Source: Pseudomonas quebecensis
Lineage (GTDB): Bacteria > Pseudomonadota > Gammaproteobacteria > Pseudomonadales > Pseudomonadaceae
Reading direction: 5' to 3'
NCBI RefSeq assembly: GCF_026410085.1
Contig: NZ_CP112866.1
Span: forward strand, 4,897,001-4,961,000
DNA length: 64,000 nt
Position numbers and translations under genes: made by a program. Below the pieces are notes generated by a model. That model ran no database searches and was not told the DNA's origin. It worked only from the letters and a program-made list of their open reading frames with translations. Below, piece by piece: positions 54,619 to 58,510 of this stretch; the stretch's first letter is position 1; each line of letters starts with the position of its first letter.

Positions 54619-55704
54619 ATGACCATCAGCGATGCACTGCACCGTTTGCTACTCGACAACCTGACCACCGCGACCATCCTGCTCAATGACGATCTGCGTC
54701 TTGAGTACATGAACCCGGCGGCGGAGATGCTCCTGGCCATCAGCGGCCAGCGCAGCCATGGCCAGTTCATCAGCGAATTGTTCACCGAGTCGGCCGAGGC
54801 CTTGAGTTCGTTGCGCCAGGCGGTTGAACAGGCGCATCCCTTCACCAAGCGCGAAGCGATGCTCACAGCCCTTACCGGCCAGACCCTCACCGTCGACTAC
54901 GCCGTAACCCCGATCCTGAGCAACGGCGCCACCCTGCTGCTGCTTGAAGTACACCCCCGCGATCGCCTGCTGCGCATTACCAAAGAGGAAGCTCAGCTGT
55001 CCAAGCAGGAAACCAGCAAGATGCTGGTGCGCGGCCTGGCCCACGAGATCAAGAACCCCCTCGGCGGTATCCGTGGCGCGGCACAGCTGCTGGCCCGCGA
55101 GTTGCCGGACGAGAACCTCAAGGACTACACCAACGTCATCATCGAAGAAGCCGACCGCCTGCGTAACCTGGTGGATCGCATGCTCGGCTCCAACAAGTTG
55201 CCGTCGCTGGCGCTGACCAACGTGCACGAGGTGCTCGAACGCGTCTGCCAACTGGTGGAGGCCGAAAGCCAAGGCTGCATTACCTTGGTGCGCGACTACG
55301 ACCCCAGCATCCCCGACGTGTTGATCGACCGCGAGCAGATGATCCAGGCGGTGCTCAATATCGTGCGCAACGCCATGCAGGCCATCAGCAGCCAGAACGA
55401 GCTGCGCCTGGGTCGCATCAGCCTGCGCACCCGCGCCCTGCGCCAGTTCACCATCGGCCATGTGCGCCACCGCCTGGTGACCAAGGTCGAGATCATCGAC
55501 AACGGCCCGGGCATTCCTGCGGAACTGCAGGAAACAATCTTCTTTCCCATGGTCAGCGGCCGCCCGGACGGTACCGGGCTGGGCCTGGCCATTACCCAGA
55601 ACATCATCAGCCAGCATCAGGGCTTGATCGAATGTGAGAGCCATCCCGGCCACACCACGTTCTCGATCTTTCTGCCACTGGAACAAGGAGCCCCATCGAC
55701 ATGA
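54619..55704 (+). CDS. ntrB: nitrogen regulation sensor kinase/phosphatase NtrB
   Basis: 361 residues from the ATG at 54619, with AGAGGT just upstream; the open frame further upstream is not conserved. A PAS domain covers about 10-115. The H-box is GLAHEIKNPLGGIRGAAQLL (His142), then the N-box RNAMQAISSQ, G1 DNGPGIP and G2 PDGTGLGLAI. No membrane segment: it is a cytoplasmic kinase controlled by PII. It phosphorylates or dephosphorylates NtrC. It overlaps ntrC by four bases. Confidence 0.95.
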   Translation: MTISDALHRLLLDNLTTATILLNDDLRLEYMNPAAEMLLAISGQRSHGQFISELFTESAEALSSLRQAVEQAHPFTKREAMLTALTGQTLTVDYAVTPILSNGATLLLLEVHPRDRLLRITKEEAQLSKQETSKMLVRGLAHEIKNPLGGIRGAAQLLARELPDENLKDYTNVIIEEADRLRNLVDRMLGSNKLPSLALTNVHEVLERVCQLVEAESQGCITLVRDYDPSIPDVLIDREQMIQAVLNIVRNAMQAISSQNELRLGRISLRTRALRQFTIGHVRHRLVTKVEIIDNGPGIPAELQETIFFPMVSGRPDGTGLGLAITQNIISQHQGLIECESHPGHTTFSIFLPLEQGAPST

Positions 55705-57137
55705 GCCGTAGTGAAACTGTGTGGATCGTCGATGACGACCGTTCTATCCGCTGGGTCCTGGAGAAAGCCTTGCAACAGGAAGGCATGACCACCCAGAGTT
55801 TCGACAGCGCCGACGGCGTGATGAGCCGCCTGGCACGCCAGCAGCCGGACGTGATCATCTCCGACATCCGCATGCCCGGCGCCAGTGGCCTGGACCTGCT
55901 GGCGCGGATTCGCGAGCAGCATCCGCGCCTGCCGGTGATCATCATGACCGCGCACTCGGACCTGGACAGCGCTGTCGCCTCCTATCAGGGCGGCGCCTTT
56001 GAGTACCTGCCCAAGCCTTTCGATGTGGACGAGGCCGTGGCGCTGGTCAAGCGCGCCAACCAGCACGCCCAGGAGCAGCAGAATCAGGAAGCGCCACCGA
56101 CTTTGACCCGCACCCCGGAAATCATCGGCGAAGCGCCGGCGATGCAGGAAGTGTTTCGCGCTATCGGGCGTCTGAGCCATTCCAACATCACCGTGTTGAT
56201 CAACGGCGAGTCGGGTACCGGTAAAGAGTTGGTGGCCCACGCCCTGCACCGCCACAGCCCGCGGGCGGCATCGCCGTTTATCGCGCTGAACATGGCGGCG
56301 ATCCCCAAGGATCTGATGGAGTCCGAGCTGTTCGGCCATGAGAAAGGCGCCTTCACCGGCGCGGCCAACCTGCGTCGCGGGCGCTTTGAACAGGCCGACG
56401 GCGGCACGCTGTTCCTCGACGAAATCGGCGACATGCCGGCCGACACTCAGACCCGCTTGCTGCGCGTACTGGCCGATGGCGAGTTTTACCGCGTCGGCGG
56501 GCACACCCCGGTGAAGGTCGATGTACGCATCATCGCCGCCACCCACCAGAACCTGGAAACCCTGGTGCACGCGGGCAAATTCCGTGAAGACTTGTTCCAC
56601 CGTCTCAACGTGATCCGCATCCATATCCCACGCATGTCGGACCGCCGCGAAGATATCCCGACTCTCGCCCGCCACTTCCTCAGCCGCGCTGCCCTTGAAC
56701 TGGCCGTCGAGCCGAAGGTGCTCAAAAGCGAAACCGAGGAATACCTGAAGAACCTGCCATGGCCGGGTAACGTACGCCAGCTGGAGAACACCTGCCGCTG
56801 GATCACGGTGATGGCGTCCGGGCGCGAAGTGCACATCAGCGACTTGCCGCCGGAGCTGCTGAGCCTGCCGCAGGATTCGGCACCGGTGACCAACTGGGAA
56901 CAAGCCTTGCGCCAATGGGCCGACCAGGCCCTGGCACGCGGTCAGTCGAACCTGCTGGACAGCGCTGTACCGGCATTCGAGCGGATCATGATCGAGACCG
57001 CACTGAAGCACACCGCCGGCCGCCGTCGCGATGCCGCTGTGTTGCTGGGTTGGGGTCGTAATACCCTGACGCGCAAGATCAAGGAACTGGGCATGAAGGT
57101 GGATGGTGGGGATGACGATGAGGGCGACGACGCCTGA
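55701..57137 (+). CDS. ntrC: nitrogen regulation response regulator NtrC
   Basis: 478 residues. The receiver domain has [11 protein letters not shown] and the phospho-acceptor Asp55 in [11 protein letters not shown]. The AAA+ domain shows Walker [16 protein letters not shown], the sigma-54 contact loop [10 protein letters not shown] and Walker [16 protein letters not shown]-terminal Fis-type helix-turn-helix ([20 protein letters not shown]) reads GCAC-N7-GTGC sites. It activates sigma-54 promoters under nitrogen limitation, including glnA and the RNA downstream. Confidence 0.96.
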
Positions 57138-57180: not shown

Positions 57181-57207
57181 TGGACCTTCATAAAGCGTCA
57201 GGAGCAT

Positions 57208-57222
57208 GCACCGCTTCAATGC
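57208..57222. promoter_or_regulatory. NtrC-type site upstream of the nrsZ-like RNA
   Basis: GCACCGCTTCAATGC fits GCAC-N7-GTGC with one mismatch. It lies about 155 bases upstream of the sigma-54 promoter at 57365, a suitable enhancer distance. Confidence 0.5.
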
Positions 57223-57300
57223 ACCATGAACCGGCATCGGGCATGGATCCAAGGCCTGAAACCTCAGAGCCGCGGAGTAAAAATTGAACACCGAAAACAT

Positions 57301-57325
57301 CAAGGCCCCGTATCCCGGGGCCTTG
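57301..57325. other. strong GC-rich hairpin upstream of the sRNA promoter
   Basis: CAAGGCCCC and GGGGCCTTG form a perfect stem with a seven-base loop. There is no T-run on either strand, so it is only a candidate read-through barrier between ntrBC and the RNA gene. Confidence 0.45.
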
Positions 57326-57363: not shown

Positions 57364-57381
57364 CTGGCACGCGCCCTGCAA
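57364..57381 (+). promoter_or_regulatory. sigma-54 promoter of the nrsZ-like RNA
   Basis: CTGGCACGCGCCCTGCAA matches the strict TGGCAC -24 element, with GG (57366) and GC (57378) ten bases apart. A second TGGCAC lies 17 bases upstream (57348) without a matching -12. The start is expected near 57391. Confidence 0.8.
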
Positions 57382-57390
57382 TAACTCTTG

Positions 57391-57516
57391 TATTACCCAG
57401 TTTCGGGGACCTTGGTACAGGCAGGCCGAGAATCCCCTCTTTAATATCGAAGCCTTCGCGGCTTCACCCCGTTTTGGGAGCCCTGGTACAGGCAGGCCGG
57501 GAACTCCCTCTTTTAT
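57391..57516 (+). ncRNA. nrsZ: nitrogen-regulated small RNA, NrsZ-like
   Basis: About 125 bases behind a sigma-54 promoter and right after ntrC, where NrsZ lies in P. aeruginosa (from memory). Two modules 71 bases apart each fold into a stem around the identical loop TACAGGCAGG (57416-57425 and 57487-57496). The stems differ by paired changes: GGGGA/TCCCC becomes GGGAG/CTCCC, and CTTGG/CCGAG becomes CCTGG/CCGGG. A third hairpin (GAAGCC-TTCGC-GGCTTC, 57449-57465) separates them. The last module is followed by TCTTTTATT and can serve as the terminator. It probably acts post-transcriptionally under nitrogen limitation; targets cannot be read from the sequence. Confidence 0.8.
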
Positions 57517-57953
57517 TGCCCTTGGAGATGGACCTCCAGCCGCCAGCGGTCATCGACCTCCTCGCCTTTCCACTCCCCACGCAACGGCCGCGCCGCGACC
57601 AGGTTCAGCAGCAAGCCGCCGTCGGTCCTGCGGATGCGCCAATTCACATCCCTGTCGTTGACCTTGACTTGCCCACTGGCAGCCTTGCCCTGGGCGTCAA
57701 ACAACAACGCCAGCGTACCGTCGATGTGTTCGCCATGCAGTTTGGGTTCACTGTTGAACCACAGCACAACGCCGTCCGCCGCCGTCTCTACCTGCTGCAA
57801 TTCAACCGGGCCGGGAATGGTCAAGCGGCCGATCATCAGGCCCACCATCAGGCCGACAATCGCCAGCGAGCCCATGACCTTCGGCAATAGCTTCGGTCTT
57901 GGGTCCTCTTCGAGGGTAGAATGCAGCCCATCTTTGCCTTCGGAGCCGTGCAT
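57513..57953 (-). CDS. hypothetical single-pass membrane protein
   Basis: 146 residues. A charged N terminus (about 1-25) is followed by one hydrophobic helix (VMGSLAIVGLMVGLMIGRL) and a periplasmic beta-rich domain (GVVLWFNSEPKLHGEHIDGT, WRIRRTDGGLLLNLVAARPL). No family recognised. The ATG at 57953 shares the CATG with trmL's start on the other strand, and the stop overlaps the end of the nrsZ-like RNA. AAGGA lies 11 bases before the ATG. Confidence 0.65.
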   Translation of the reverse strand: MHGSEGKDGLHSTLEEDPRPKLLPKVMGSLAIVGLMVGLMIGRLTIPGPVELQQVETAADGVVLWFNSEPKLHGEHIDGTLALLFDAQGKAASGQVKVNDRDVNWRIRRTDGGLLLNLVAARPLRGEWKGEEVDDRWRLEVHLQGQ

Positions 57954-58407
57954 GTTTCACGTCATCCTTTTTCAACCAGAAATTCCGCCGAACACCGGCA
58001 ACGTTATCAGGCTGTGCGCCAACAGTGGCTGCCACCTGCACCTGATCGAGCCGCTGGGCTTCGACATGGACGACAAACGCCTGCGCCGCGCCGGCCTCGA
58101 TTATCACGAGTACGCAACCCTCAAGCGTCATGCCGACCTCGCCAGCTGCCTGGAAAGCCTAGGCCAGCCGCGCTTGTTCGCGTTCACCACCAAAGGCTCG
58201 CGGCCGTTCCACGATGCCAGCTTTGCCGAAGGCGATGCCTTCCTGTTCGGCCCTGAAAGCCGGGGACTGCCCGCCGACGTACTTGACGCACTGCCCGATG
58301 GCCATCGCCTGCGCCTGCCGATGCGCGAGGGTTGCCGCAGCCTGAACCTGTCGAACACCGTCGCCGTAGCCGTCTACGAGGGCTGGCGCCAGCTCGGTTT
58401 CAAGTAA
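57952..58407 (+). CDS. trmL: tRNA (cytidine/uridine-2'-O-)-methyltransferase TrmL
   Basis: 151 residues from the ATG at 57952 (MFHVILFQPEIPPNTGNVIR), with CGGAG six bases upstream. It is a SPOUT fold: NTGNVIRLCANSGCHLHLIE, FGPESRGLP and LPMREGCRSLNLSNTVAV near the end. It methylates the wobble base of tRNA-Leu isoacceptors. Its promoter must lie inside the divergent neighbour's coding region. Confidence 0.94.
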   Translation: MFHVILFQPEIPPNTGNVIRLCANSGCHLHLIEPLGFDMDDKRLRRAGLDYHEYATLKRHADLASCLESLGQPRLFAFTTKGSRPFHDASFAEGDAFLFGPESRGLPADVLDALPDGHRLRLPMREGCRSLNLSNTVAVAVYEGWRQLGFK

Positions 58408-58420
58408 TACACAAACAAAT

Positions 58421-58510
58421 ATGGGAGGGGGCTTGCCCCCGATAGCGGTAGGCCAGTCACCTGGATGACGACTGAAACTCCGCTATCGAGGGCAAGCCCC
58501 CTCCCACATT
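58421..58510. repeat. inverted pair of REP-type repeats
   Basis: ATGGGAGGGGGCTTGCCCCC at 58421 and CGCTATCGAGGGCAAGCCCC at 58481 face each other between the converging trmL and secB genes; both flanks (GATAGCGG/CGCTATCG) are also complementary. It may end both transcripts. Confidence 0.8.

Follow-up and report, generated by a model that had tools for sequence, protein, structure and literature searches.

The structured RNA encoded downstream of ntrC in Pseudomonas quebecensis is an ordinary ortholog of NrsZ, a known small RNA of Pseudomonas, and is in that sense already known; what our comparison adds is the modular build of NrsZ and the strength of the constraint on its loop. We consider it likely that this ortholog is a two-unit array induced by NtrC and σ54, in which the repeated loop serves as a seed for pairing with mRNAs and the last hairpin forms the 3′ end. 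The window, that is, the whole 64 kb stretch of DNA that was analyzed, comes from a genome of 5.6 Mb, and the nearest NtrC among the named records found is that of P. bananamidigenes (97%).

Identity and genomic setting of the locus

An Rfam search of the whole window returned the NrsZ family (RF02695) on the plus strand at positions 57394-57542 with 89.1 bits (E = 1.3e-20), above the gathering score of 76.9 bits that serves as the cut-off of the family, and this was the only match at the gathering level in the 64 kb. The original prediction, made from the sequence alone, had likened the RNA to NrsZ and had proposed a search with the Rfam model as a check. In addition to that score, the position after ntrC, the σ54 promoter, and the covariation of the stems described below bear this identity out.

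The RNA lies between ntrC, which ends at 57137, and trmL, with a predicted start near 57391; the features of the locus are listed in Table 1. The convergent gene of 146 aa had no match in NCBIfam or Pfam. For trmL, the best NCBIfam matches were TrmL models, both of which scored below their cut-offs (NF007683.0, 215 bits against 282; TIGR00185.1, 186 bits against 190.6). Two further elements were observed in the surroundings: a strong terminator-like hairpin of ten pairs between ntrC and NrsZ (57301-57325), scored on the minus strand, and a long imperfect inverted repeat 3′ of trmL (58421-58510), which by eye resembles a REP-type element.

Table 1. Coordinates of the NrsZ locus and its neighbors in the window.
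Feature	Position	Strand	Basis or remark
ntrB	54619..55704	+	NF008293.1, 394 bits; start placed by peptide
ntrC	55701..57137	+	TIGR01818.1, 797 bits
NtrC-like site TGCACCGCTTCAATGCA	57207..57223	+	158 bases 5′ of the promoter
σ54 promoter TGGCACGCGCCCTGCA (-24/-12), TGGCACG-CGCC-CTGCA	57365..57380	+	Consensus match
Predicted NrsZ transcript, ~127 nt	57391..57517	+	Both ends predicted: 5′ end by the promoter, 3′ end by the U-rich tail
Module 1 hairpin	57405..57437	+	MFE fold; R1 match 57401-57446, 67.8 bits
Loop 1 ACAGGCAG, likely seed	57417..57424	+	Exact in 484 of 485 modules, 197 genomes
Spacer hairpin GAAGCC-TTCGC-GGCTTC	57449..57465	+	Fold, z -3.24
Module 2 hairpin, last module	57476..57508	+	MFE fold; R1 match 57472-57517, 69.0 bits
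Loop 2 ACAGGCAG, likely seed	57488..57495	+	Exact copy of the loop
U-rich tail TCTTTTATT, probable 3′ end/terminator	57509..57517	+	Sequence; tail comparison across loci
Convergent gene, 146 aa	57513..57953	-	Stop codon within the NrsZ tail
trmL	57952..58407	+	Best NCBIfam matches are TrmL models, both below cut-off

Two modules with one loop

The original prediction had described two modules, 71 bases apart, that present the same ten-base loop. The two modules, their shared loop, and the distance between them stand, and TACAGGCAGG occurs exactly twice in the window; in the minimum free energy fold each hairpin, both being of the same shape, has a loop of 8 nt closed by a U.G pair, and the predicted ten bases include this pair. 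The compensating stem changes that had been listed (GGGGA/TCCCC to GGGAG/CTCCC, and CTTGG/CCGAG to CCTGG/CCGGG) were found in the sequence as claimed, the third hairpin between the modules was recovered by folding, and the T-rich tail behind the last stem corresponds to TCTTTTATT.

For its composition, the 126-nt RNA as a whole has an ordinary folding energy (z -0.99, matched or bettered by 33 of 200 shuffles), and that of the single modules is moderate (z -1.90, with 8 of 200 shuffles as good, and z -1.67, with 13 of 200). Folding is stronger in the spacer hairpin than in the modules, with 1 of 200 shuffles as good. The main evidence for the structure of NrsZ is comparative rather than energetic.

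Distribution of modules and constancy of the loop within the genus

At E <= 0.001, matches to the Rfam model were obtained in 197 of the 199 genus genomes, with 132 above the cut-off and 65 below it, and in none of 14 control genomes. The two remaining assemblies, both in many contigs, gave no match in one case (G037) and fragments of only 17.8 bits in the other (G157). NrsZ loci were fetched from all 197 matching genomes, and in total they contain 485 modules, from one to eight per genome. When ACAGGCAG on a two-part stem is required (484 modules), 60 genomes carry one module, 40 two, 66 three, 19 four, and 7 five, while six modules are found in 1 genome, seven in 3, and eight in 1.

The 485th module (L195:667-713, genome G189) carries a one-base insertion in its loop, ACTAGGCAG, and is the middle unit of an array that thus has three modules, against two by the exact count. 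The completeness of this inventory was assessed in several ways. A gapless scan that was blind to the loop and its two neighbors, and to which insertions are invisible, recovered 479 of the 484 exact modules and no other among 748,730 windows. Near the arrays, AGGCAGG was found four times outside exact modules, and the L195 occurrence alone is module-like. A module model, R1, built from 90 of the modules, returned 483 matches over the genus loci, one of them weak (16.5 bits). In the 85 loci that were compared singly, it found 235 of 238 exact modules together with the L195 module; of the other two batches, where totals only were compared, one had 210 exact modules and 210 matches in addition to that of 16.5 bits, and the other had 36 of each.

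The loop is exact in 484 of 485 modules, while the stems vary, which strengthens the earlier suggestion that function resides in the repeated loop. Neither flanking base was part of the selection, and yet a T precedes the loop in all 484 exact modules and a G follows it in 481; these two bases make merely a U.G pair in 88 of 90 modules. These 90 modules had been selected for diversity from 194 distinct ones; in their alignment, changes on both sides are seen at 6 of 11 stem pairs, and 95.1% of cells remain paired. None of 500 shuffles was as high on any of five measures of covariation, and no slid register equaled the observed one. Absence of stem covariation in related strains had been named beforehand as a result that would refute the prediction; in the relatives compared, the stems do covary.

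Promoter and upstream control region

A σ54 promoter just upstream of the RNA had been predicted, and the site in the window agrees with 11 of the 12 fixed positions of the consensus. Its single mismatch, a C for the first T of TTGC, is the same in 194 of 197 loci. At 48-72 nt 5′ of the first loop, every one of the 197 loci has a site with at least 9 of the 12 positions, and 186 have one with at least 10; among stretches drawn at random from the opposite strand of these loci, such levels were reached in 48 and 9 of 985, respectively.

The NtrC-like site that had been placed about 155 bases further upstream was likewise recovered, at the slightly larger distance given in Table 1. After removal of one locus whose flank was too short, the corresponding motif, TGCACC-N6-ATGCA, agrees at 10 or more of 11 positions in 130 of 196 loci, compared with 1 of 980 shuffles; this comparison is partly circular because the motif was derived from the same set. 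The textbook NtrC dyad is weak, with at least 11 of 14 positions in 38 of 196 loci against 29 of 980 shuffles. The NtrC-like site is common where ntrC adjoins, with 121 of 151 loci, but was seen in only 9 of the 45 where ntrC was not found next to the RNA.

In the genus, ntrC was found directly upstream of NrsZ in 151 of 197 loci and not found in the fetched flank of the other 46. Among the latter, those inspected (L118, L123, L124, L131, and others) have different genes upstream, together with a promoter and a module. The presence of the promoter in loci where no adjoining ntrC was found indicates that it has been kept despite the changed neighborhood.

Tails, spacers, and probable growth of the arrays

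The position of a module in its array is reflected in the sequence that follows its hairpin. A TTTTA tail is found behind 186 of 197 last or single modules (60 of 60 in single-module loci and 126 of 137 in arrays) and behind only 40 of 287 internal ones, while CTTTA[AC] follows 219 of 287 internal modules and none of the 197 last or single modules; the L195 module with the inserted base was left out of these counts and of those on spacers. The presence of TTTTA in last or single modules and its rarity in internal ones suggest that one hairpin probably provides both the target-binding loop and the 3′ end. Judging from the tails, it is most likely that the loop-bearing hairpin also ends the RNA and that most internal copies have lost this ability.

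A homolog of the convergent 146-aa gene was found in 179 of 197 loci, and in 175 of 197 the NrsZ tail contains the stop codon of this gene, an overlap that may explain part of the conservation of the tail. TTTTA is also present in all 18 loci where no homolog of this gene was found and in 3 of the 4 where its stop is located elsewhere. In two genomes of another genus (G202 and G218), the module hairpin shortly 3′ of ntrC is a textbook terminator, with a stem of 15 pairs followed by 7-8 T.

Spacers between modules are diverse, with 244 distinct sequences among 287 and lengths of 3-79 nt, and 193 of 242 distinct ones have a stem of at least 5 pairs, compared with 467 of 1210 mononucleotide shuffles. 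In the 31 loci with four or more modules, two internal modules resemble each other more closely when they share an array (0.896, 91 pairs) than when they come from different arrays (0.837, 186 pairs), which is the pattern that tandem duplication would be expected to leave.

Occurrence outside the genus

RF02695 was detected at E <= 0.1 in 34 of the 59 genomes sampled from the family, and 29 of these lie outside the genus. For 23 of those 29 genomes, 24 loci were fetched, and 22 of the 24 contain modules with the exact loop. Changed loops (TCAGGCAG, TTAGGCAG, or a one-base insertion of the L195 type) were found in the remaining two, L299 and L300, and in L454-L456, which the module model detected in two further genera. 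All five of these loci keep AGGCAGG, and the variation falls on the 5′ side of the loop. The inserted loop ACTAGGCAG was seen again in the single module of L300, which belongs to another genus than L195.

The Rfam model, which spans two modules, gave low scores to short NrsZ, as the 65 genus genomes below its cut-off show. In all four sampled genomes of one genus (G203, G219, G232, and G242), RF02695 had no match, and the module model found a single strong module about 0.85-1.0 kb 3′ of ntrC in each of the four; a unit-level model thus detects modules in a genus that Rfam searches pass over. In G211, of another genus, two separate single modules (L285 and L286) were observed on different contigs, each with a σ54-like promoter, and ntrC was not found in the fetched flanks of either. 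At the level of the order, 12 of 244 genomes matched the module model, and the only 2 outside the family were marginal; both were rejected, one lying within a long open frame and the other being a plain terminator-like hairpin.

Search for targets

The search for targets covered complements of the loop in the P. quebecensis genome, two leaders in relatives, the starts of ntrB, ntrC, and glnA, and patterns in 40 genomes, and it found no conserved target of NrsZ. In its own genome, the complement of the ten-base loop, CCTGCCTGTA, has 8 places other than its own, most of which lie within open frames; no clear ribosome site was seen at any of them. The shorter pattern CTGCCTGT-N2-32-ATG gave 70 rows against 13 for the reversed pattern; part of the 70 loci was viewed (the first 30 rows and 20 further stretches), and five leaders with CTGCCTGT were picked by eye, two of which were taken to relatives. 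Neither site is conserved: CTGCCTGT is kept in only 6 of 24 relatives in the leader of a HAAAP-type permease, and for pdxB in 3 of 30, at another place in one of them. In the leader of the permease (a transporter of the Trp/Tyr-permease family; L387-L410), the loop complement of those 6 genomes was seen just before the start codon, beside a hairpin-like element.

Across 40 genomes, ribosome-site patterns matched before a start 127 times against 26 for the reversed pattern, an unfair control in that reversal loses the words of ribosome sites and codons, so that no conclusion was drawn from it. The most recurrent stretch (12 of 40) covers the last codons of a SIS-domain gene that precedes a BON-domain lipoprotein gene, and this recurrence may be explained by the codons. 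Other recurrent stretches, which also look coding, are presumably the mdcB-mdcC junction, a pdhC-lpd-like junction, and the N-terminus of a LapD-like protein. For each of six candidates, 2-15 of 200 shuffles gave a duplex energy as good, which is no proof, as the sites had been preselected for matching. Feedback pairing with the starts of ntrB, ntrC, and glnA was rejected, with 97, 430, and 465 of 500 shuffles as good, respectively. A weak lead is gcvT, where CTGCCTGT immediately precedes the ribosome site in 3 of 40 genomes, the bases between CTGCCTGT and the start being nearly identical in the three stretches; in the two of these loci that were fetched, L532 and L537, the start region at about position 1501 is that of gcvT, the NCBIfam run having covered L532.

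Proposed mode of action and relation to known systems

Under nitrogen shortage, phosphorylated NtrC and σ54 would start a short RNA near 57391 whose units are bipartite hairpins, all with the 8-nt loop ACAGGCAG. This loop would act as a seed that pairs with mRNAs carrying sites similar to CUGCCUGU. The units would be redundant, and a single one is probably enough, because 60 of 197 genomes carry only one. The hairpin of the last unit and its U-rich tail would form the 3′ end of the RNA, so that seed and terminator would be one and the same hairpin, while internal units, whose U-tract is mostly broken, would be read through and then probably cut apart by RNases.

Several of these elements have parallels in the reviews and reports on P. 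aeruginosa. There, NrsZ is reported to be induced by NtrB/C and RpoN under nitrogen shortage, to be processed to species of about 40 and 140 nt, in line with the processing into modules that the original prediction had suggested, and to be functional in its first 60 nt (PMC8395346, PMC9308961), a function that agrees, as do the natural one-unit RNAs, with the sufficiency of one unit. It is reported to activate rhlA post-transcriptionally through the 5′UTR of that gene (PMC8395346), and rhlA is the only target named in the review passages on this species. Hfq crosslinking data from P. aeruginosa also include NrsZ, whose difference between conditions is described as not significant (PMC6890931), and ACAGGCAG has been named as the conserved motif of its hairpin loops (PMC9308961). 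The RNA of P. quebecensis shares with that of PAO1 (ntrC-PA5126 intergenic region) the Rfam family, the place after ntrC, the σ54 promoter, and the loop; it differs in having two modules and a predicted length of about 127 nt, whereas the reviews give 226 nt for PAO1.

The most likely mechanism is that of a base-pairing RNA with redundant loop seeds, for which rhizobial NfeR1 is the nearest working analogue found. NfeR1/αr14 (the “cuckoo” family) is described as having three hairpins whose stems diverge while their ultraconserved loop motif is identical and provides redundant seeds, and it is likewise tied to NtrBC and nitrogen stress (PMC10746234). NrsZ resembles it in presenting the same conserved loop on diverging stems. 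The likeness is one of architecture. According to the same source, the loop of NfeR1 is the anti-Shine-Dalgarno motif CCUCCUCCC, which the NrsZ loop ACAGGCAG is not, and NfeR1 has a promoter of the σ70 type that is repressed by NtrC (PMC10746234). GlnZ of Enterobacteriaceae is another small RNA linked with nitrogen limitation and with the glnA-ntrBC region, but it is described as being released from the 3′UTR of glnA and as occupying another place in the gene order (PMC9731577).

Alternative explanations

A loop that binds a protein fits the same conservation as a loop that pairs with RNA. Titrating RNAs have precedents in RsmY/Z, which act on RsmA, and CrcZ, which acts on Hfq, and NrsZ might similarly expose one binding site for a regulatory protein per loop, the number of modules setting the amount that is soaked up. 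One to eight copies of a single loop on variable, covarying stems would suit a protein site, and the target search described above turned up no conserved mRNA. Even so, we regard titration as unlikely: the single module of 60 of 197 genomes would make a poor sponge, and the GGA typical of RsmA sites is missing from the loop, as are the A-rich repeats of Hfq/Crc sites. Activation of rhlA through its 5′UTR, as reported for P. aeruginosa (PMC8395346), also argues against it.

We find two other alternatives very improbable. If the array acted as one long RNA, with the modules as repeats of a larger fold, the spacer hairpins would matter too, and the spacers are indeed richer in hairpins than their shuffles (193 of 242 against 467 of 1210); their sequences and lengths are nevertheless highly variable (244 distinct among 287, 3-79 nt), and single-module genomes have no spacer at all. 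Marginally less probable still is that the hairpins merely terminate the transcription of ntrC or of the convergent gene, have arisen by chance duplication, and lack a function in trans. In favor, the last module is terminator-like and stands tail to tail with the next gene in most loci, but a terminator has no need of a loop kept in 484 of 485 modules, and a σ54 promoter 48-72 nt before the first loop is found in all 197 loci, including those where no adjoining ntrC was found. The NtrC/σ54-induced array with a seed in each loop remains the reading that we prefer.

Significance

A broader proposal, to which we give somewhat less than even credence, is that NrsZ consists of self-sufficient units of variable copy number, each hairpin being seed and terminator at once, and that it arose from a single-unit ancestor of about 60 nt, spread through Pseudomonadaceae, with arrays growing to eight units by duplication and the breaking of the U-tracts of internal copies. 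A core of targets would then be shared, and rhlA would be a local addition in P. aeruginosa. If this holds, the duplication of units would tune the dose of RNA per transcript while leaving the promoter untouched.

The natural series of one to eight copies makes both dose and redundancy testable, and a one-unit NrsZ of about 60 nt is simple enough for target capture. As the promoter and the loop are kept in nearly every genome of the genus that was sampled, the main job of NrsZ may lie beyond rhlA.
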